Source: Erysipelotrichaceae bacterium (GTDB lineage: Bacteria > Bacillota_I > Bacilli_A > Erysipelotrichales > Erysipelotrichaceae). Taken from it: 62,171 nt of DNA. The position numbers were made by a program, and so were the translations under genes. Location: positions 1-62,171 of the forward strand of contig JAQXQU010000023.1 of the NCBI GenBank assembly GCA_029101345.1. Reading direction: 5' to 3'. Below are positions 49,583 to 60,130 of this stretch, piece by piece (within the stretch, counting starts at the first letter, position 1; the number at the start of each line of letters is the position of its first letter). The notes under the pieces are model-generated. The model saw only the letters and a program-made list of their open reading frames with translations, ran no database searches and was not told the origin of the DNA.

Positions 49583-49735
49583 AATCCATACCTTTTATTT
49601 ACTTTATCTTATTATCCCATATATTATCTAATGCCAATTATTAATTAGCACTTAATAATCAGTCAATATCTCTTAGTGGCATTAGGATTAGTAATAGCAC
49701 ATCATGCTAAAATTAAAGTGAAGGAGGTAGTAATT

Positions 49736-50704
49736 ATGTGTACTGCTGCTGTATATAAAACAAACGATACCTATTTTGGCAGAAACCTCGACTATGAATT
49801 TTCCTATGGTGAAGAAGTGGTCATTGTACCAAAAAACAAAGCAATTGATTTAAGACATGGCGGAAGGATCGAACATCATTATGCCATGGTTGGCATGGCT
49901 CATGTCATTAATGATATTCCTTTATATTATGATGCAATCAATGAAGAGGGACTCGGCATGGCGGGTTTGAACTTTGTTGGCAATGCCCACTACAACGATT
50001 ATCAGGAGGGTGCTAAGAATATCACGACCTTTGAATTCATTCCATATCTTCTTGCGTCCTGCAGAAATGTTGAGGAAGTCAAGGCTGAGCTAGGCAGAAT
50101 CAATCTCTGCAATACGCCTTTCTCCAAGGAACTGCCAATTGCCCTATTGCATTGGCTTGTCTCTGACAAGGAAGGAAGTAGCATCACCATTGAATATATG
50201 AAGGATGGCCTCCATATCTATGACAATAAGGTTGGGGTTATGACCAATAATCCACCATTCGACTATCAGCTCTTCAATCTCAACAACTATCCTAATCTCT
50301 CACCTAAGGATCCAAAGGCCTATGAAGAAGGTCTCTACCGCTATTCAAGAGGGATGGGCTCCTATGGTTTGCCAGGTGGCCTTTCAAGCATGGAACGCTT
50401 TGTCAAAGTTGCCTTTACTAGAAACAATTCTGTGTCAGGAAGTGATGAAGAAAGCTCTGTTTCCCAGTTCTTCCATATCCTTTCTTCGGTTGAACAGCAG
50501 AAGGGCTGTTGTGAAGTCAAGCCTAATGAGTATGAATATACCATCTATTATTCCTGTGCAAATCTGAACAAGGGCATCTATTATTACGTCACTTATGATG
50601 GCCACCAGATCAATGCAGTTGATATGCATAGGGCCAATCTTGACTCAGATCAGCTCTATCGCTATGCAATGATTCTAAGACCTGCAATCAACTATCAGAA
50701 TTGA
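49736..50704 (+). CDS. Choloylglycine hydrolase / bile salt hydrolase-like (Ntn hydrolase)
   Basis: About 322 residues from ATG 49736. After removal of Met1 the nucleophile is Cys2 (MCTAAVY), then FGRNLDYEF with Arg16 and Asp19, MAGLNFVG, MTNNPPFDYQ and YSRGMGSYGLPGG, all conserved in bile-salt and penicillin-V acylases. The exact amide substrate cannot be read from these motifs. AAGGAGGT at 49720 fixes the start; an earlier in-frame GTG is not used. Typical of gut bacteria. No transporter or bile-inducible operon beside it. Confidence 0.88.
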   Translation: MCTAAVYKTNDTYFGRNLDYEFSYGEEVVIVPKNKAIDLRHGGRIEHHYAMVGMAHVINDIPLYYDAINEEGLGMAGLNFVGNAHYNDYQEGAKNITTFEFIPYLLASCRNVEEVKAELGRINLCNTPFSKELPIALLHWLVSDKEGSSITIEYMKDGLHIYDNKVGVMTNNPPFDYQLFNLNNYPNLSPKDPKAYEEGLYRYSRGMGSYGLPGGLSSMERFVKVAFTRNNSVSGSDEESSVSQFFHILSSVEQQKGCCEVKPNEYEYTIYYSCANLNKGIYYYVTYDGHQINAVDMHRANLDSDQLYRYAMILRPAINYQN

Positions 50705-50835: not shown

Positions 50836-51414
50836 ATGGAAAACAAGAGTTTCTTACAGAAGCTGCTCGGCACATGGAACACAATGACAATTGTTACTGT
50901 TGGTGTCGGCGCTGCATTGTTCGGTGTATTAATGAACTATGGTGGAATTCCTATCTTCACTAACACTTCATTAACTACAGCTATGATTGTACCAGTTGTT
51001 GTTGGTGCAATGTATGGTCCAGTTCCAGCTGCTGTTGCATGTGGTGTTGGTAACGTTATCGCTGACTTGATTGGTGGTTGGGGCCTTTACCCAGCTTGGA
51101 GTATTGCAAATGCTGTTGCAGGTCTCTTTGTAGGTGCACTTCCTCTATATGGTGCATATATCACAGATGGCAAATTTGAAATCAAGCACATGATCTGGTA
51201 TCTTGTTTGCTTAATTGTTGGTAACGCATTGGCATTTGGTCTTGTTGCTCAGGTCTTCACTGTTATCTTTGAAGGTGGCGATTTGAATGTTTCTCTGATT
51301 CAGGGCTTATACGCTTCTGTTGGCAATATCCTGATTGAAGCTGTTGTCGGTATCCCAGTAATCAAACTGTTAGCTAATCGTTATGCTAGCCGCTCAAATC
51401 TTACTGAAGAATAA
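50836..51414 (+). CDS. ECF transporter substrate-binding (S) component
   Basis: About 192 residues with six predicted membrane helices. The N-terminal helix contains IVTVGVGAALFGVLM, the A-x-x-x-A-like contact for EcfT, followed by the loop NYGGIPIFTNTSLTTA and GNVIADLIGGWGLYP, the motif shared by many ECF S units. Binding specificity is unknown. Its genetic link to DUF62 enzymes hints at a SAM-related compound such as adenosine or a methionine-linked metabolite. ATG 50836 is preferred over a TTG at 50827. Confidence 0.85.
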   Translation: MENKSFLQKLLGTWNTMTIVTVGVGAALFGVLMNYGGIPIFTNTSLTTAMIVPVVVGAMYGPVPAAVACGVGNVIADLIGGWGLYPAWSIANAVAGLFVGALPLYGAYITDGKFEIKHMIWYLVCLIVGNALAFGLVAQVFTVIFEGGDLNVSLIQGLYASVGNILIEAVVGIPVIKLLANRYASRSNLTEE

Positions 51415-51441
51415 TCCAAACTTATAAAAATTAAATAAGAT

Positions 51442-51475
51442 ATGCTTTTGCTATGGCAAAAGCATTCTTTGTTTT
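51442..51475 (+). terminator. Hairpin between S and A genes
   Basis: ATGCTTTTGC TATG GCAAAAGCAT is a perfect 10-bp stem followed by TCTTTGTTTT, strong enough to end most transcripts after the S gene. It may set higher S than AT levels. Confidence 0.72.
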
Positions 51476-51489
51476 AGAAAGGAACATAA

Positions 51490-53205
51490 ATGAGAGAACC
51501 TATTATCGCTTTCAAGGACTTCAGTTTCCGTTATAAGACACAGAAGAATCCGACTCTGCATAATATCAATCTGGAAATCTACCCAGGTGAAAAGGTCCTG
51601 ATTCTTGGTGCTTCAGGAAGTGGCAAGTCAACCCTCTGCAATTGCATCAATGGTCTGATTCCCTTCTCCTATGAAGGAGAAATCAAGGGCAGCTGTGTTG
51701 TCAATGGAATTGAAACCAAGACATCATCAATCTTCAAGCTATCCAACAGCGTTGGTACAGTCTTACAGGATTCTGATGCCCAGTTTGTTGGCCTGACAGT
51801 TGCCGAAGATGTCTCCTTTGTGATGGAAAACAACTTCATTCCTAGGAGTGAAATGTTGCCAGTCATCAAGAAGAATCTGAATATGGTCCATATGCAGGGC
51901 TTTGAGCAGCATGTCCCATTCCAGCTATCAGGTGGCCAGAAACAGAAGGTCGCCATTGCTGGTGTCTTCAATAATGATGTCAAGATCATGATCTTCGATG
52001 AACCTTTGGCTGCTCTTGACCCACAGATGGGCATGCTGGCTGTTGACCTCATTGATGAATTGGCAAGAGAAACCAACAAGACTGTCATCATTGTTGAGCA
52101 TCGTCTGGAAGATGTCCTCTATCGGCCAGTTGATCGCATTATCCTGATGTCCAAGGGTGAAATTGTTGCCGATGTCAAACCAGATGAGCTTCTAAAAGGT
52201 CCAATGCTGAAGGAATCCGGCATCAGAGAACCTCTGTATCTCACAGCAATGAAATATGCCGGCTGTGATATTCAGGATATTGATAATATCTGTAACCTGG
52301 AAGAAATGGTTCTTTCTGATGAAAACAAGGACAAGCTTAGAAAGTTCTTTACAGAAGAAAGAGAAAAGGTTGAAGAAAACAAAGGTGATGTTGTTCTCTC
52401 CTTCAAGAATGTTTCCTACTCCTATGATGGTGTTGAAAAGGTCCTCAAGGATGTTTCCTTTGATATCAGAAAAGGCGAAAGACTGGCTATTATTGGCAAG
52501 AATGGTGCTGGCAAGTCAACAGCTGCTAAGCTGATGACTGGCATCTGCCGTCCTGTTGAAGGAACAGTTACCTTGAATGGCAAAGATACCAAGGAAATGA
52601 CCATCAAGGAAATTGGTGAAACTGTAGGCTATGTCATGCAGGATCCTAACAATATGATTGTCAAGGATCTGATCAAGGATGAAGTTGGTCTGGCACTGAC
52701 CATCAGAAAAATGCCACAGGAACTTGTGGATGAAAAGGTCAAGGTCGCTCTTGAGACTTGCGGTCTATACAAGATGCGCAACTGGCCAGTTGATTCCATC
52801 TCCTATGGCCAGAAGAAAAGAGTTACTGTTGCTTCTATGATGGCACTGGAACCAGATATCCTGATTCTTGATGAACCAACAGCTGGTCAGGACTTCAAGA
52901 GCTATACTGATATCATGAACTTTGTCAACATCCTCAATAAGGAATATGGCAAGACCATCCTCTTCATTACCCATGATATGCATCTGGCTATTGAAAATAC
53001 TGATCGGGCTATTGTCTTCTCTGATGGCAAGCTGATTGATTCCAACAAGGTCTTCTCAGTTCTATCAAATGAAGAGACAATCAGAAAGGCTCATTTAAAG
53101 CAGACTTCATTATATAATCTGGCTCGTAAGCTTGATATTGATCCAGAAATGGCAATCAGACACTTTATTGAATTTGAAAGGACACTAAAGAGAAATGAAC
53201 AATAG
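51490..53205 (+). CDS. ECF transporter ATPase, fused A1-A2
   Basis: 571 residues with two ABC ATPase domains. Domain 1: Walker A GASGSGKSTLCNC, signature LSGGQKQKVAIAG, Walker B IMIFDEPLAALD. Domain 2 starts near residue 300: Walker A GKNGAGKSTAAK, signature region ISYGQKKRVTVAS, Walker B ILILDEPTAGQD. The second signature reads I-S-Y-G-Q, away from L-S-G-G-Q. A fused dual ATPase of this size fits the ecfA1/A2 pair seen as one gene in several Bacillota. Acts with EcfT. Confidence 0.92.
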   Translation: MREPIIAFKDFSFRYKTQKNPTLHNINLEIYPGEKVLILGASGSGKSTLCNCINGLIPFSYEGEIKGSCVVNGIETKTSSIFKLSNSVGTVLQDSDAQFVGLTVAEDVSFVMENNFIPRSEMLPVIKKNLNMVHMQGFEQHVPFQLSGGQKQKVAIAGVFNNDVKIMIFDEPLAALDPQMGMLAVDLIDELARETNKTVIIVEHRLEDVLYRPVDRIILMSKGEIVADVKPDELLKGPMLKESGIREPLYLTAMKYAGCDIQDIDNICNLEEMVLSDENKDKLRKFFTEEREKVEENKGDVVLSFKNVSYSYDGVEKVLKDVSFDIRKGERLAIIGKNGAGKSTAAKLMTGICRPVEGTVTLNGKDTKEMTIKEIGETVGYVMQDPNNMIVKDLIKDEVGLALTIRKMPQELVDEKVKVALETCGLYKMRNWPVDSISYGQKKRVTVASMMALEPDILILDEPTAGQDFKSYTDIMNFVNILNKEYGKTILFITHDMHLAIENTDRAIVFSDGKLIDSNKVFSVLSNEETIRKAHLKQTSLYNLARKLDIDPEMAIRHFIEFERTLKRNEQ

Positions 53206-54115
53206 AATGGTCATCAACTATACACCGGGTCCAACGTTTCTTCATAAGTTGTCCGGTTTCACCAAGGTCTTCCTGTTCCTGGTCATGTCAGCAGCGATCA
53301 TCTCTACTTTTGATATCCGTGTACTGATCCCCCTCTTATTGATAAATCTCATCGAAATCATTTCGATGAAGCCTAACTGGAAGCCAATTATCATTGTCTT
53401 CTCCATCACTTTCGTTACTGTTACATTAATTGGCAATATCATGCTGTTCTTTGTCTCGCCAGCAGCTGGCTATAATAATGTTGGTGCTGAACATATCATC
53501 TGGCAAGCATCTGAGAACCTTTATCTATCAAAGGAATGGCTTTGGTATGTCTTTGTCTTCTTTATCAAGCGTACAACATCCTTTGCCTCAGTTATGGCTT
53601 TTGCCTTAGCAACAACACCTTCGGAATTTGCTTCAGGTCTTAACAAATGCGGCTTATCATATAAGGTCTGTACAGTTGTTTCCCTGGCTTATCGAACAAT
53701 CCCTGATATTGCCAATGACTTTGTAAATATCCGCAATTCCATGATGATGAGAGGTCTGGAACTGCAGGGCAAGGGTGTCAGCGTCTGGAAGAAGATCAAG
53801 AATACAGTCATTCTGCTGGTACCTTTGATCTTCACAGCCTTTGGCAAGGTTGGCAATATTGCCAATGCCATGGACTTAAGAGGTTATGGCAAAAAGAAGA
53901 AGAGAACCTATTATGCAGAAAATGAGCCAACCAAGGCTGATAAGCTGGTCAGAACCCTGACAATTCTTCTTTTATGCTGGACCATCTTCTATATTGTCTA
54001 CTTCCGTATCATCAATCCATGGCCAGCCAAGTACTGGTGTCCATGGTTGGCAAGAGAAGAAGTGACATATGTCAATCCATTAACAACCTTCTTCTTCCTG
54101 AAGTGGTTTAAATAA
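53195..54115 (+). CDS. ECF transporter transmembrane (T) component
   Basis: 306 residues. Hydrophobic helices near residues 23-55, 65-90, 115-140 and later, with the cytoplasmic coupling motif MMMRGLELQGKG (A-R-G type) near residue 185, followed by a second coupling segment AMDLRGYGKKKK. EcfT links the ATPase to the S component. It overlaps the ATPase gene by 11 bases and precedes the DUF62 cluster by 12 bases, so all are likely in one operon. Confidence 0.92.
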   Translation: MNNRMVINYTPGPTFLHKLSGFTKVFLFLVMSAAIISTFDIRVLIPLLLINLIEIISMKPNWKPIIIVFSITFVTVTLIGNIMLFFVSPAAGYNNVGAEHIIWQASENLYLSKEWLWYVFVFFIKRTTSFASVMAFALATTPSEFASGLNKCGLSYKVCTVVSLAYRTIPDIANDFVNIRNSMMMRGLELQGKGVSVWKKIKNTVILLVPLIFTAFGKVGNIANAMDLRGYGKKKKRTYYAENEPTKADKLVRTLTILLLCWTIFYIVYFRIINPWPAKYWCPWLAREEVTYVNPLTTFFFLKWFK

Positions 54116-54127
54116 AGGAGTATTATT

Positions 54128-54964
54128 ATGAGAAATTTAGTTATTCAGACAGATTTTGGAACTGGTTCATTATCAGTAGGTGCCATGCATGGTGTTTGTG
54201 CCATGGTTAGCCAGGACTTGAAAGTAGCTGATGGCAATAATGATGTTGCCCAGTTCAATGTATTGGATGCGTCAGAATCATTGATGTACCAGTTGCCATA
54301 TTGGCCTACTGGCACTGTCTTTGTCTCAGTTGTTGACCCAGGTGTTGGCACTAAGAGAAAGAGCTGCGTGGCCTTGACTAAGACTGGCCAGTATATTGTG
54401 ACACCTGACAATGGCACTTTGACTTATATTGCCGAGAGAATTGGCATTGAAGCAGTTCGTGAGATTGATGAATCCGTCAATCGTTTGAAGGGTTCGGAAG
54501 ATGTCTTCATCTTCCATGGACGTGATGTCTATGCATATTGTGGAGCGAGACTAGCTGCAGGTGTCATTGACTTTGAAGGCGTTGGCCCTGCTTATCCGGT
54601 TGAAGAAGTAGTCTTAGCTGATTATCCACATCCTGTTCATGAAAATGGCATGGTTTCTGGCATGATTGTTGAAGCAACTGAACACTTTGGTTTGGTAGGC
54701 ACAAATATTCCATTCCCTTGGATGGAAGAAGAAGGCATGAAGTATGGTGATAAGGTACGAGTTGTTGTTAAGAACAATGATGAAGTTGTTCTTGATGAAA
54801 TCATCCCACTAGTGCCAACATTTGGCTATGTTGGCTTAAATGAACCGCTGGTCTTCTCATCAGAAACAAGAATGGTCATGCTTGCCAAGAACCAGGGCAA
54901 TGCGACTAAGGATTATCATTTAGGTTATGGTCCAACTTGGACAATGACTGTTACTAAGGCATAA
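54128..54964 (+). CDS. SAM hydroxide adenosyltransferase family protein (DUF62), copy 1
   Basis: 278 residues. Starts VIQTDFGTGSLSVGAM and carries the family catalytic set: VVDPGVGTKRKS (Asp and Arg), PDNGTLTYI, and FHGRDVYAYCGARLAAG (His). Proteins with this triad hydrolyse SAM to adenosine and methionine, and related forms halogenate it. The C-terminal beta-barrel, from about residue 170 (VSGMIVEATEHFGLVGTNI), is present. GGAGT precedes the ATG; follows ecfT. First of five tandem copies. Confidence 0.92.
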   Translation: MRNLVIQTDFGTGSLSVGAMHGVCAMVSQDLKVADGNNDVAQFNVLDASESLMYQLPYWPTGTVFVSVVDPGVGTKRKSCVALTKTGQYIVTPDNGTLTYIAERIGIEAVREIDESVNRLKGSEDVFIFHGRDVYAYCGARLAAGVIDFEGVGPAYPVEEVVLADYPHPVHENGMVSGMIVEATEHFGLVGTNIPFPWMEEEGMKYGDKVRVVVKNNDEVVLDEIIPLVPTFGYVGLNEPLVFSSETRMVMLAKNQGNATKDYHLGYGPTWTMTVTKA

Positions 54965-54966
54965 AT

Positions 54967-55776
54967 ATGAAACCATCAATTGTTATTCATTGCGATAGTG
55001 GCTTATATTCAACAGAATTTGCCAAGCTGGCAGGCGTGATTGAGACAAGAGTTCCAGATTTGGATATTGTCTTAGCTAATCCAGCTTTTGAAGAAGGCAA
55101 TGTCCCACAGGTCTCAGCTTTTCTCTTTACAACTGTTCCTTTCTATCCGGAAAACAGCATCTTTGTCTCAACAGTTGGCAAAGGAAGAGCAATTGCTGTC
55201 AGGATTGATAATGGTTCAATAATCCTTTCCTATGACAATGGCACTGCTACTATGGTTTGCAAACACTTTGGCTTTAAGGAAGCTCGCCTGCTATCTAACA
55301 AATATGGAAATGACGGCATGGAACTTGCACGTTGTGCAGCTGACTTGGCTAATGGTCTTGAATTTGCCAAGATTGGTTCAGAACTAAAGAAGGAAGATGT
55401 TGTTTTCTTTGAAATGCCAAAGGCCAGAATCGAAGAAGGCTTGGCTGAAGGTGAAGTAGGCATGTTGCTAAGGTCATTTGGCAATATTACCTTCACCATT
55501 GGTACTGATGAATTTGAAGGCACAAAGATCAAGCATGGTGATTTGGTCAAAGTCACCTTTACATATCAGAATAAGACTGTCTATGAAGAAACCATGCCTT
55601 ATCAGCCATCCTTTGGCTATGTGCCACATGGCATGCCAGTAGTCTTCAATGGCTCTTCTGGCTATATGGATATTGGCCTTAATATGGAAAGCTTTATCGA
55701 TACTTGCATACCAGGAATCCTGAAGATTGATAACCCTGGTGACTATAAGGTCAGAATTGAAAAGATTGGAGAATAA
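54967..55776 (+). CDS. DUF62-family paralogue, copy 2, catalytic residues lost
   Basis: 269 residues and clearly related (VFVSTVGKG where the others have VFVSVVDPGVG; SYDNGTATMV for PDNGTLTYL). The Asp of VDPGVG is absent and the block is shortened, and the FHGRD motif is replaced by NDGMELARCAADLANG, so the triad His is lost. Overall fold should remain, including the C-terminal barrel. It is probably a non-catalytic partner or a diverged binder. It lies 2 bases after copy 1. Confidence 0.85.
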   Translation: MKPSIVIHCDSGLYSTEFAKLAGVIETRVPDLDIVLANPAFEEGNVPQVSAFLFTTVPFYPENSIFVSTVGKGRAIAVRIDNGSIILSYDNGTATMVCKHFGFKEARLLSNKYGNDGMELARCAADLANGLEFAKIGSELKKEDVVFFEMPKARIEEGLAEGEVGMLLRSFGNITFTIGTDEFEGTKIKHGDLVKVTFTYQNKTVYEETMPYQPSFGYVPHGMPVVFNGSSGYMDIGLNMESFIDTCIPGILKIDNPGDYKVRIEKIGE

Positions 55777-55779
55777 GAG

Positions 55780-56634
55780 ATGAAACCTTGTGTAGTATTA
55801 CAGTCCGATTTTGGCATTTCAACTGGACTTCCTGCTTCAATGACAGCAGTCGTATCCAAAGTTGATCCAGAACTAAGAATTTATGATATGTGTCATGAAG
55901 TCAGAATGTATGACATCCGTCAGGGTGGCAGAATTCTAGCATCCACTTGCCCATATTTTGCTGATGGCACTGTCTTTGTCTCAGTTGTTGATCCAGGTGT
56001 AGGTACAACAAGAAGAAGCTGTGTAGCTAAGCTTGATAATGGTTCCTATGTCGTTACACCAGATAATGGAACACTTACTTATCTATATGATCATGTCGTA
56101 GCAGTCAGGGAAATTGATGAAACAGTCAATAGATTGCCTGGCTCTGGCAACCACCACACTTTCCATGGCCGTGATGTCTATGCTTATACTGCTGCTAGAC
56201 TGGCATCAGGCATTATTGATTATGCTGGTGTTGGTCCTGAATATCCAGTGACTGATATTATCAGATTCTCAACACCTACTGCTGAAATAGTTGATGGCTG
56301 TGCATGTGGTGAAATCACCAGTGCATCTGACCACTTTGGCAATGTAGGCATTTCAGTACCAAATGAAATGATCCATGCGATTGGCATCAATCTTGGTGAT
56401 ATGGCAAGACTTGAAATCATCAAGGATGGAAATGTCATCTATGATAAGGAAATGATGTTCCATCGCTCTTTTGGCTGGGTTAAGGTTGGTGAGCTCATCA
56501 TGAACGAATGCAGCAATGACTATGTGGAAATCTCTGTCAACCAGGGCAGCTTTGTTGCTCAGGAATTGCCAGAAGTCGAAGGAGTCTTTGACCTTTCAGC
56601 CTATAAGGTTCGCATCAGCAAGGCAGGTAAGTAA
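55780..56634 (+). CDS. SAM hydroxide adenosyltransferase family protein (DUF62), copy 3
   Basis: 284 residues. Full motif set: LQSDFGISTGLPASM, VVDPGVGTTRRSCVAKLDNG, PDNGTLTYLYDH, and HTFHGRDVYAYTAARLASG. The C-terminal domain is complete (ITSASDHFGNVGISVPNE). It begins with MKPCVVLQ like copy 2 and copy 4, which share a short first strand. 3 bases after copy 2 and 2 before copy 4. Confidence 0.92.
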   Translation: MKPCVVLQSDFGISTGLPASMTAVVSKVDPELRIYDMCHEVRMYDIRQGGRILASTCPYFADGTVFVSVVDPGVGTTRRSCVAKLDNGSYVVTPDNGTLTYLYDHVVAVREIDETVNRLPGSGNHHTFHGRDVYAYTAARLASGIIDYAGVGPEYPVTDIIRFSTPTAEIVDGCACGEITSASDHFGNVGISVPNEMIHAIGINLGDMARLEIIKDGNVIYDKEMMFHRSFGWVKVGELIMNECSNDYVEISVNQGSFVAQELPEVEGVFDLSAYKVRISKAGK

Positions 56635-56636
56635 AA

Positions 56637-57476
56637 ATGAAACCTGTTGTAGTAATGCAGATGGACTTCGGCATTGGTGGTGGTTCAGCCATGTATGGAA
56701 CCATCAAGAAGGTTGATCCGGAAGTTGAAGTCTTTGAAGCACACAACCGTATTGAAAAGTTCAATCTCAACGAAGCATCACGTTCTTTGAACAATATGGT
56801 TACTTACTGGCCAGCAGGTACAATCTTTGTATCAGTAGTTGACCCAGGTGTTGGGACATCCCGCCGTGCTTCTGTTGCAAAACTGAAGAATGGTTCCTAT
56901 GTTGTTACACCTGATAACGGAACATTGACCAAGATCCATGAAACGGTTGGTGTTGAAGCCATCCGTGTCATTGATGAAACAAGAAACAGATTAAAAGGCA
57001 CTGAGAAGGTTTCCATCTTCCATGGCCGCGATCTTTTTGCCTATTGTGCAGCTAAATTAGCCAGTGGCATCATTGATTTTGAAGGTGTTGGTCCTGAATA
57101 TCCGGTAGAGGAAATCGTACTAAATCCTGAATATCCTCATAGCTACAAGGATGGTGAAGCCAAGGGCTTTATCACTGATATGATGAGAATGTTTGGCAAC
57201 CTGGAAACCAATATTCCAATTGATGACTTTGCCAGAGCTGGCTTTGTCTCTGGTGATGATGTCCATGTCCTGATCAAGGAAAAGGACAGGGTGGTCGTTG
57301 ATCATGCAATTCCTTTCAGGACATCATTTGGCTATGTGCCTGAAGGATCAGAAGTTGTCTATAACTCATCAGATGGTGTTATTGGCATTGGCATTAACAA
57401 GGGTTCCTTCCTGGAGCGCTATAATATTGGCATTGGTGGTGATTGGTCATTGACCATCACAAAGGAGGCAAAATAA
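56637..57476 (+). CDS. SAM hydroxide adenosyltransferase family protein (DUF62), copy 4
   Basis: 279 residues. Motifs complete: VVMQMDFGIGGGSAM, VVDPGVGTSRRASVAKLKNG, PDNGTLTKIHETVG, and SIFHGRDLFAYCAAKLASG. The C-terminal domain is present (FITDMMRMFGNLETNIPID). Its stop shares a base with the start of copy 5 (TAATG). Confidence 0.92.
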   Translation: MKPVVVMQMDFGIGGGSAMYGTIKKVDPEVEVFEAHNRIEKFNLNEASRSLNNMVTYWPAGTIFVSVVDPGVGTSRRASVAKLKNGSYVVTPDNGTLTKIHETVGVEAIRVIDETRNRLKGTEKVSIFHGRDLFAYCAAKLASGIIDFEGVGPEYPVEEIVLNPEYPHSYKDGEAKGFITDMMRMFGNLETNIPIDDFARAGFVSGDDVHVLIKEKDRVVVDHAIPFRTSFGYVPEGSEVVYNSSDGVIGIGINKGSFLERYNIGIGGDWSLTITKEAK

Positions 57477-57964
57477 TGAATAAGATTGTAATGCAGACAG
57501 ATTTTGGCTGCATGCCTTCAGCCATGGTTGGTGTTTGCAAGATTGTTGATCCAGCATTAAAGGTCTATCCAGTAGCTTTTGATGTTCCAACTTTCAATAT
57601 TGAAAAGGCTGGAAACAACCTTGTTGAAGTAATTCCTTATTGGCCGGCAGGTACAGTCTTTGTCTCAGTTGTCGACCCTGGTGTTGGTACATCCAGACAT
57701 GCCTCAGTTGCCTTGACCAAGACTGGCCATTATATTGTGACACCAGATAATGGCATCCTTGATATTGTTGATAAGGCATTAGGTATTGAAGCAGTCAGAG
57801 AAATTGATCAGAGCGTCAATCGCTATCATGGCAATGAATGGTCTGAGAAGTCTGATATCTTCCATGGCCGTGATATCTTTGCCTACTGTGCAGCTCGTCT
57901 AGCAGCTGGTCAGATTGACTTTGCTGGCGTTGGTCCTGAATATCCGGAAATCGTCAGATTATAA
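57476..57964 (+). CDS. DUF62-family protein, copy 5, N-terminal domain only
   Basis: 162 residues from ATG 57476, with AGGAGG at 57463. The N-terminal catalytic domain is intact (VMQTDFGCMPSAM, VVDPGVGTSRHASVALTK, PDNGILDIVDK, DIFHGRDIFAYCAARLAAG), but the frame ends at FAGVGPEYPEIVRL, just where the C-terminal barrel starts in copies 1, 3 and 4. In this family the barrel completes the adenine pocket across the subunit interface. The gene may be a truncated remnant or rely on another copy in a mixed oligomer. Confidence 0.85.
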   Translation: MNKIVMQTDFGCMPSAMVGVCKIVDPALKVYPVAFDVPTFNIEKAGNNLVEVIPYWPAGTVFVSVVDPGVGTSRHASVALTKTGHYIVTPDNGILDIVDKALGIEAVREIDQSVNRYHGNEWSEKSDIFHGRDIFAYCAARLAAGQIDFAGVGPEYPEIVRL

Positions 57965-59169: not shown

Positions 59170-59240
59170 TAGGAACTAGCTGAACAGGCCTTTTGGGAGC
59201 CGGGTCAAAAGACAATGGATATCATCCATGGGACAGATAA
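59170..59240 (+). promoter_or_regulatory. NiCo-type (czcD) riboswitch upstream of the CDF gene
   Basis: In order on the plus strand: GGAACTAGCTGAACAGGC, GGGAGCCGGGTC, a short hairpin (GTC AAAA GAC), another hairpin (ATGGAT ATC ATCCAT) and GGGACAG. The blocks TGAACAGGC, AGCCGGG and GGGACAG are the conserved cores of cobalt/nickel-sensing czcD riboswitches. The expected P1 closing stem is not evident. Its position, just before the ribosome site of a cation efflux gene, agrees with the family. Confidence 0.65.
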
Positions 59241-59251
59241 TGGAGGTATTT

Positions 59252-60130
59252 ATGGAATTGTCATATAAGAAAGAGACCAGAAAAGTATCATTAGTAAGCA
59301 TTATTGGAAATATCATCTTATCAGGATTAAAGCTCATGGCGGGTTTTGTTGCAAGGTCAAGCGCTATGGTTTCAGATGCTGTTCATTCTGCATCAGATGT
59401 CATTAGCAGCATTGTTGTCATTACTGGCATTGAATTATCAGCTAAGGAATCCGATAAGGAACATCCTTATGGCCATGAGAGAATGGAGTGTGTAGCTGCT
59501 ATCGTTTTAGCTACTATCCTGGCTCTTACGGGTCTCTTGATTGGCTATAATGCCCTTGTTAAGATGTTAGCTCCAACAGAGGTTGTCATTCCGGGAGTTT
59601 TGGCATTAGTGGCAGCGATTGTCTCAATAATCGTCAAGGAAGCCATGTATTGGTATACCAGACATTATGCCAAGAAACTTGATTCCAATGCCCTGATGGC
59701 TGATGCCTGGCATCATCGTTCAGATGCCCTCTCATCCATTGGTTCTCTTGTGGGTATTGCTGGCGCAAGAATGGGTTATCCAATCATGGACCTTCTAGCT
59801 AGTCTTGTTATTTCCCTATTTATCATCAAGGCTGCCTATGAAATCTATAAGGATGGCATTGACAAGATGATTGATCATGCCTGCGATGAAGGCTTTGAAA
59901 ATGAAATCAGGGAACTGGTCTTAAAGCAGGAGGGAGTCAAGCGGATTGATTTGCTGCAGACAAGACTCTTTGGCAATAAGATTTATGTTGATATTGAAAT
60001 AGCAGCTGATGGAGACTTGAAACTAAGGGATAGCCATAGGATAGCGGAGAATATCCATGACCTATTGGAGAAGCAATATCCAAAGATCAAGCATATCATG
60101 GTACATGTAAATCCTGATAATCCTTTATAA
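59252..60130 (+). CDS. Cation diffusion facilitator (CDF) efflux transporter
   Basis: About 292 residues from ATG 59252, preceded by GGAGGT. Six membrane helices; metal-site motifs SDAVHSASDVISS and ADAWHHRSDALSSIGS (H/D-x-x-x-D in helices 2 and 5), HPYGHERMEC loop, and a C-terminal cytoplasmic domain (RIDLLQTRLFGNKIYVDIEI). Exports divalent cations against protons; the riboswitch-like leader points to cobalt/nickel or iron. ATG 59228 lies inside the leader and is not preferred. Confidence 0.93.
   Translation: MELSYKKETRKVSLVSIIGNIILSGLKLMAGFVARSSAMVSDAVHSASDVISSIVVITGIELSAKESDKEHPYGHERMECVAAIVLATILALTGLLIGYNALVKMLAPTEVVIPGVLALVAAIVSIIVKEAMYWYTRHYAKKLDSNALMADAWHHRSDALSSIGSLVGIAGARMGYPIMDLLASLVISLFIIKAAYEIYKDGIDKMIDHACDEGFENEIRELVLKQEGVKRIDLLQTRLFGNKIYVDIEIAADGDLKLRDSHRIAENIHDLLEKQYPKIKHIMVHVNPDNPL

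Follow-up and report, generated by a model that had tools for sequence, protein, structure and literature searches.

The stretch of DNA analyzed here (the window; 62,171 nucleotides) comes from an Erysipelotrichaceae bacterium of the gut or rumen and carries, on its forward strand, the genes of an ECF importer followed by five tandem DUF62 genes, referred to below as c1 to c5. The first gene of the operon (50836–51414) encodes the S component, the substrate-binding membrane subunit of the importer, which is of the PF07155/PRK13661 type (PF07155, 5e-22) and bears the database label "riboflavin." It is followed by fused ECF ATPases with a DUF3744 linker (A1A2; 51490–53205), in which Pfam recognizes two ABC domains plus DUF3744, and by a T component of the CbiQ family (53195–54115; PF02361, 5.8e-24), such that S, two ATPases, and T lie in one operon, as in a dedicated ECF module. 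The DUF62 genes occupy positions 54128–54964 (c1), 54967–55776 (c2), 55780–56634 (c3), 56637–57476 (c4), and 57476–57964 (c5). The genes are tightly packed in part of the operon only; T and c1 are 12 nt apart, the gaps from c1 to c2, c2 to c3, and c3 to c4 measure 2, 3, and 2 nt, and the ATG of c5 overlaps the stop codon of c4, whereas S and A1A2 are separated by 75 nt, the fold of which contains an attenuator-like hairpin followed by a T-rich tail (51442–51465). Pfam gathering scores were passed by S (PF07155), A1A2 (both ABC domains and DUF3744), T (PF02361), and each of c1 to c5 (PF01887). An earlier, sequence-only reading of this DNA had described S, fused A1A2, and T genes with five closely spaced paralogues behind them, and its coordinates were right.

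The S component scores 79.1 bits against PF07155 (cut-off 26.7) and 103.5 bits against PRK13661, where it barely clears the cut-off of 99. Its AF2 model (pLDDT 90.7) has FolT, RibU, and ThiT as the closest solved folds, at 13–20% identity, and the protein is 56–64% identical to the S components of three sister operons and 24–30% identical to those of the remaining aligned relatives. Directly upstream of the operon lies a gene for a bile salt hydrolase (choloylglycine hydrolase; 49676–50704; NCBIfam, 452 bits). Elsewhere in the window a NiCo riboswitch (59170–59238), just above its gathering score, is located upstream of a cation-efflux-like gene (59228–60130).

In DUF62 enzymes an Asp-Arg-His triad is required for hydrolysis, and the halogenases are without it (PMC10491745). 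The triad is found with the same spacing in c1 (D70/R77/H130), c3 (D71/R78/H129), c4 (D69/R76/H129), and c5 (D67/R74/H130), but not in c2, which has lost the Asp and the His and lacks the segment surrounding the His. The PF01887 score is likewise 40.9 bits for c2 compared with 130–149 bits for the other four. The C domain (PF20257) is above its gathering score in c1–c4, with the FGN motif of c1 changed to FGL, and is missing from c5, a protein of 162 aa whose reading frame closes with a natural stop codon just where the N domain ends. The array would hence comprise four live N domains (c1, c3, c4, and c5) and four C domains (c1–c4). Set beside PH0463, MJ1651, and StDUF62 of the DUF62 (SAM hydroxide adenosyltransferase) family, c1, c3, and c4 share both domains and the triad, c5 shares the N domain with its triad, and c2 shares the fold, its AF2 model (pLDDT 91.6) having DUF62 proteins, fluorinase, and chlorinase as the nearest solved structures. 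Hydrolysis is therefore predicted for c1, c3, c4, and c5 from the presence of the triad, while c2, in which the C domain is conserved, is a DUF62 homologue but by its sequence appears to be no member as an enzyme, and we refer to it as a predicted pseudo-enzyme. The cut-offs of the (R)-SAM hydrolase equivalogs NF058624 and NF053629 (350 and 470 bits) were not reached, c3 giving the best scores with 124.9 and 101.9 bits, nor was that of the fluorinase model TIGR04507 (400 bits), against which the array copies scored 69.7 at best. The fluorinase and chlorinase (FlA and SalL) are of the same fold and distantly homologous, and halogenation had been put forward as one possible reaction of the array; the triad in c1, c3, c4, and c5, coupled with the low halogenase scores, leads us to reject such a role. 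A sixth, separate DUF62 gene is present on another contig (C104) of the same genome. In the DUF62 proteins of four relatives (L081, L094, L101, and L100), the catalytic His of FHGRD is replaced by Asp or Gly with the remainder intact, which makes these proteins candidates for further pseudo-enzymes or for altered chemistry.

The order S-A1A2-T-c1-c5 was found in 11 further species, a few of whose contigs end early on one side. A neighborhood survey for multi-copy arrays, which the sequence-only reading had proposed, recovered 12 genomes, from two genera and including that of the window, that hold an array with a c2 orthologue, as well as one uncultured Clostridiales MAG with the order S-A1A2-T-c2-c3-c4-c5, lacking c1. 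Given this recurrence across species, the arrangement is not a product of chance. When 109 DUF62 domains were placed in a tree, c1, c2, c3, c4, and c5 each formed a clade of their own across genera (bootstrap 98–100), c1 and c5 being sister clades; since these clades are older than the split between the genera, the array is old rather than the outcome of recent duplication. Both c2 and c5 occur together in all 12 species in which the two positions are readable; in none of them does c2 have the triad, and in every one c5 consists of the N domain alone. Among orthologues, the N domain is better conserved than the C domain in c1 (0.83 versus 0.60), c3 (0.80 versus 0.68), and c4 (0.77 versus 0.54), and this relationship is reversed in c2 (0.43 versus 0.62). 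The dN/dS ratios of closely related pairs, 0 to 0.24 for c2 and 0.03 to 0.14 for c5, indicate that both genes are under purifying selection. The want of a triad in c2 and of an entire domain in c5 could be taken to mean that the array is made up of redundant or decaying tandem duplicates, of which these two are functionless relics, but we give this very little credence in view of copy clades that predate the genus split, the low dN/dS of both genes, the constancy of the N-only form of c5, and the shift of conservation in c2 to its C domain. That either gene is a pseudogene or an assembly error is ruled out by the orthologues and by selection.

The linkage between DUF62 and ECF genes is by no means confined to such arrays. 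Among 273 Erysipelotrichaceae genomes searched, 124 contain DUF62, mostly in two copies, and nearly all of the DUF62 genes examined in the family adjoin S-A1A2-T, the usual layout being S-A1A2-T followed by two, at times one or three, DUF62 genes. The linkage extends to other Firmicutes, Actinobacteria, Spirochaetes, and Chloroflexi; among the 80 highest-ranking loci when named genomes were scanned, it was observed in Bacillus, Robertmurraya, Streptococcus, Hungatella, Arcanobacterium, Brachybacterium, Treponema, an Anaerolineaceae MAG, and Psittacicella. The same 80 loci include the gene order DUF62-S-A1A2-T, as well as DUF62 genes without ECF neighbors in Bacteroidota and several Bacillaceae. 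ECF-DUF62 linkage is thus widespread, and the special feature of the window is the five-gene array only; the earlier description of five copies beside an ECF importer as unusual holds for the number of copies and not for the company they keep. Searches of the literature returned no paper on DUF62 beside an ECF importer, which does not prove its absence elsewhere. At one locus (L080) the whole S-A1A2-T-DUF62x2 operon is present in two inverted copies on one contig, which may be an assembly artefact.

Evidence on the nature of the imported compound is provided by the regulators that precede S. Of 17 same-genus operons whose leader could be read, 14 have a SAM riboswitch (RF00162) immediately ahead of S, among them one with a five-gene array (L062), and a terminator-like hairpin found downstream of the riboswitch in both L062 and L066 makes up an off-switch arrangement. 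In another operon (L097), S is preceded by a T-box, the specifier of which, by alignment to the family consensus, we take to read AUG (methionine), and in a further one (L092) by a purine riboswitch with the sequence GACUA, presumably of the C74 type that recognizes guanine or hypoxanthine. The leader of the operon in the window holds no recognizable riboswitch, S-box included, even at relaxed thresholds. Relatives keep the SAM-riboswitch operon at a locus linked to tmRNA, and the array of the window is situated elsewhere in its genome. A single DUF62 gene (L065:6698-7537) has remained at that locus, beside tmRNA, and in relatives (L062, L066, and L107) this gene is found at the end of the operon, with the SAM riboswitch at its start. 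The three independent sensors, for SAM, methionine, and purine, would report a shortage of methionine, SAM, or purine, that is, of the products of DUF62 and their source. The earlier proposal that a SAM-like compound is imported and processed gains support from these regulators on orthologous operons. Of the two purposes it had entertained, salvage is favored and detoxification is less likely, since a shortage of SAM, methionine, or purine is the condition under which the relatives with riboswitch control should be expressed.

The family name of the S component suggests a different solute. Pfam and NCBIfam name their families PF07155 and PRK13661, respectively, as S components for riboflavin, the fold of S is near that of RibU among others, and a RibF-like motif is retained in a reduced genome that carries the importer (G498, see below). 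It is nonetheless quite improbable that S imports riboflavin and that DUF62 genes are its neighbors for unrelated reasons, because a scan of about 40 operon leaders found no FMN riboswitch ahead of S, whereas SAM, methionine, and purine regulators are present, and because the linkage with DUF62 spans several phyla.

The methionine and SAM metabolism of the host bears upon what an imported compound would be used for. In its genome (95% complete), no MetE (PF01717) or MetH/MmuM (PF02574) domain was found. Contig C65 of the same genome carries a gene for a divergent, 280-aa MetK-like SAM synthetase (L177:2920-3762, minus strand), which matches the MetK N domain only, has MetK-like motifs further along, is missed by PF02773, and sits under the only SAM riboswitch of the genome. 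With this divergent MetK, the bacterium probably makes SAM as well and need not depend on SAM from outside. Across the family, PF02773 is absent from 15 of 64 near-complete DUF62-positive genomes and from 4 of 88 DUF62-negative genomes (Fisher p 0.0008, for genomes that are related to one another); a link between the absence of MetK and the operon was set aside on account of this relatedness and the failure of PF02773 to detect the divergent MetK described above.

Reduced genomes (0.6–0.9 Mb) of a single genus (g184) bear on the importer itself. All six contain the S family and lack both MetK and DUF62, while MetK is present in 17 of 17 other genomes of the family to which the genus belongs. 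The one g184 neighborhood read, that of G498 (L272; 751 kb, one contig), holds an S-A1A2-T importer, and the full genome encodes TrmD, RsmH, and RsmI and yielded no MetK, also with a divergent query. Uptake of SAM most simply accounts for genomes that have methyltransferases and no MetK. The six genomes form one clade and so represent one evolutionary event, and it is across about 22% identity between their S component and that of the window that we infer a common function. Genomes of another group (g83), with the same S family and MetK but without DUF62, count against the import of SAM. G498, with its RibF-like motif, may need riboflavin; when other ECF S components were sought in it, hydrophobic candidates had no S-family match, a result that is neutral on riboflavin uptake by the S component studied here. 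ECF genes without DUF62 (L270–L272), which the sequence-only reading had named as a refuting case, therefore do exist, and they argue that the importer can work alone rather than against SAM as its substrate. Together, the regulators on relatives and the DUF62-free importer in MetK-less reduced genomes point to SAM, or something closely related to it, as the compound taken up.

Riboswitches and T-boxes that respond to SAM or methionine signal a shortage and not the identity of a solute, and two or more diverged DUF62 copies could divide several compounds or stereoisomers among themselves. The importer might accordingly carry some other methionine- or adenosine-related compound, such as S-methylmethionine, methylthioadenosine (MTA), or a SAM analogue, with DUF62 acting on a related cellular pool. 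This is a serious alternative, albeit one we hold to be doubtful: DUF62 cleaves the adenosyl-sulfonium bond, so that neither MTA nor S-methylmethionine would be a substrate, a solute from which purine is obtained would match the purine riboswitch of L092, and the MetK-less genomes, with their SAM-using methyltransferases, need SAM itself. It is also conceivable that imported (S,S)-SAM is used directly and that DUF62 merely clears away the useless (R,S) epimer that enters with it. One bacterial DUF62 enzyme does prefer the (R,S) form (PMC12120602), and the DUF62-free importer of the reduced genomes suggests direct use of SAM. We regard such a clean-up as unlikely; where methionine synthase domains were not found, as in the host genome, a net release of methionine would be useful, and a role in supplying both products agrees with the T-box for methionine and the purine riboswitch found on relatives.

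Under the preferred explanation, the ECF importer would take up S-adenosylmethionine or a very close adenosyl-sulfonium compound, and a cytoplasmic DUF62 assembly would cleave it with water to methionine and adenosine, which would then feed the salvage of methionine and of purines; methionine synthase was not detected in this host. An importer-hydrolase salvage system in this wide sense is probable. DUF62 enzymes and fluorinases are trimers whose protomers enclose the catalytic site between them (PMC12120602). With active sites of this kind, a hetero-oligomer with shared sites is the best reading of the array. The five chains would form mixed oligomers, each active site being formed where the N domain of one chain meets the C domain of its neighbor. 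A multi-subunit assembly had already been suggested from the sequence, and the fusion of c1 and c2 into one reading frame of about 550–570 codons in three species with arrays, together with the complementary loss of domains, lends weight to the idea; we consider a mixed DUF62 oligomer somewhat probable. Given intersubunit active sites, the shift of conservation in c2 suggests that the C domain is what this chain is retained for, and c5 would need the C domain of another chain. It may be the C domain of c2 that completes the live N domain of c5, a pairing that we hypothesize in preference to one of c5 with c1, c3, or c4, tentatively and at somewhat short of an even chance. For the joint proposal, that SAM or a close relative is imported and cleaved to methionine and adenosine by a mixed DUF62 assembly, we judge the case to be evenly balanced, the substrate, the in vivo reaction, and the composition of the oligomer being what we infer. 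The most specific version is more tentative again: the array would encode a SAM hydrolase that is obligately hetero-oligomeric and has divided active sites, c5 being functional solely in combination with the C domain of c2. The hydrolase would be supplied by what would be the first known ECF importer of SAM, and SAM would serve this lineage as a nutrient, to be split into methionine and adenosine.

The ECF importer and the DUF62 hydrolase are both of known kinds. Known DUF62 proteins are single-gene enzymes described as homo-oligomers, whereas the array consists of five paralogues, one of them predicted to be dead and one without a C domain. Dedicated S-A1A2-T operons with an S component of the PF07155/PRK13661 type resemble that of the window in that all subunits are present and adjacent and A1A2 is fused with DUF3744; they differ in substrate, which here is assigned as SAM-like from context rather than as riboflavin. 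The QueK-QrtT-QueL system for queuosine salvage in Clostridioides difficile is alike in logic, in that a riboswitch-controlled ECF S component is combined with enzymes that split an imported nucleoside compound (PMC11477304), but its enzymes and solute are unrelated, and its S component relies on an ECF core that is shared. A conserved importer under methionine, SAM, and purine regulators offers a simple and testable answer to the question of what DUF62 is for, namely SAM from outside. If correct, it would provide a substrate for a widespread ECF S family now labeled riboflavin and explain how reduced genomes with methyltransferases cope without SAM synthetase, and c2 and c5 would represent a clear natural complementation between a dead paralogue and half an enzyme.

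The hairpin between S and A1A2 is a further conserved element of these operons. A strong hairpin occurs in the S-A1A2 gap of all 10 array operons in which the gap is intact, although the sequences differ, and it is missing from four sister operons, in which the gap is 0–4 nt. The 75-nt gap of the window folds at z −3.5. Its conservation suggests that the hairpin controls the ratio of S to the ECF core.
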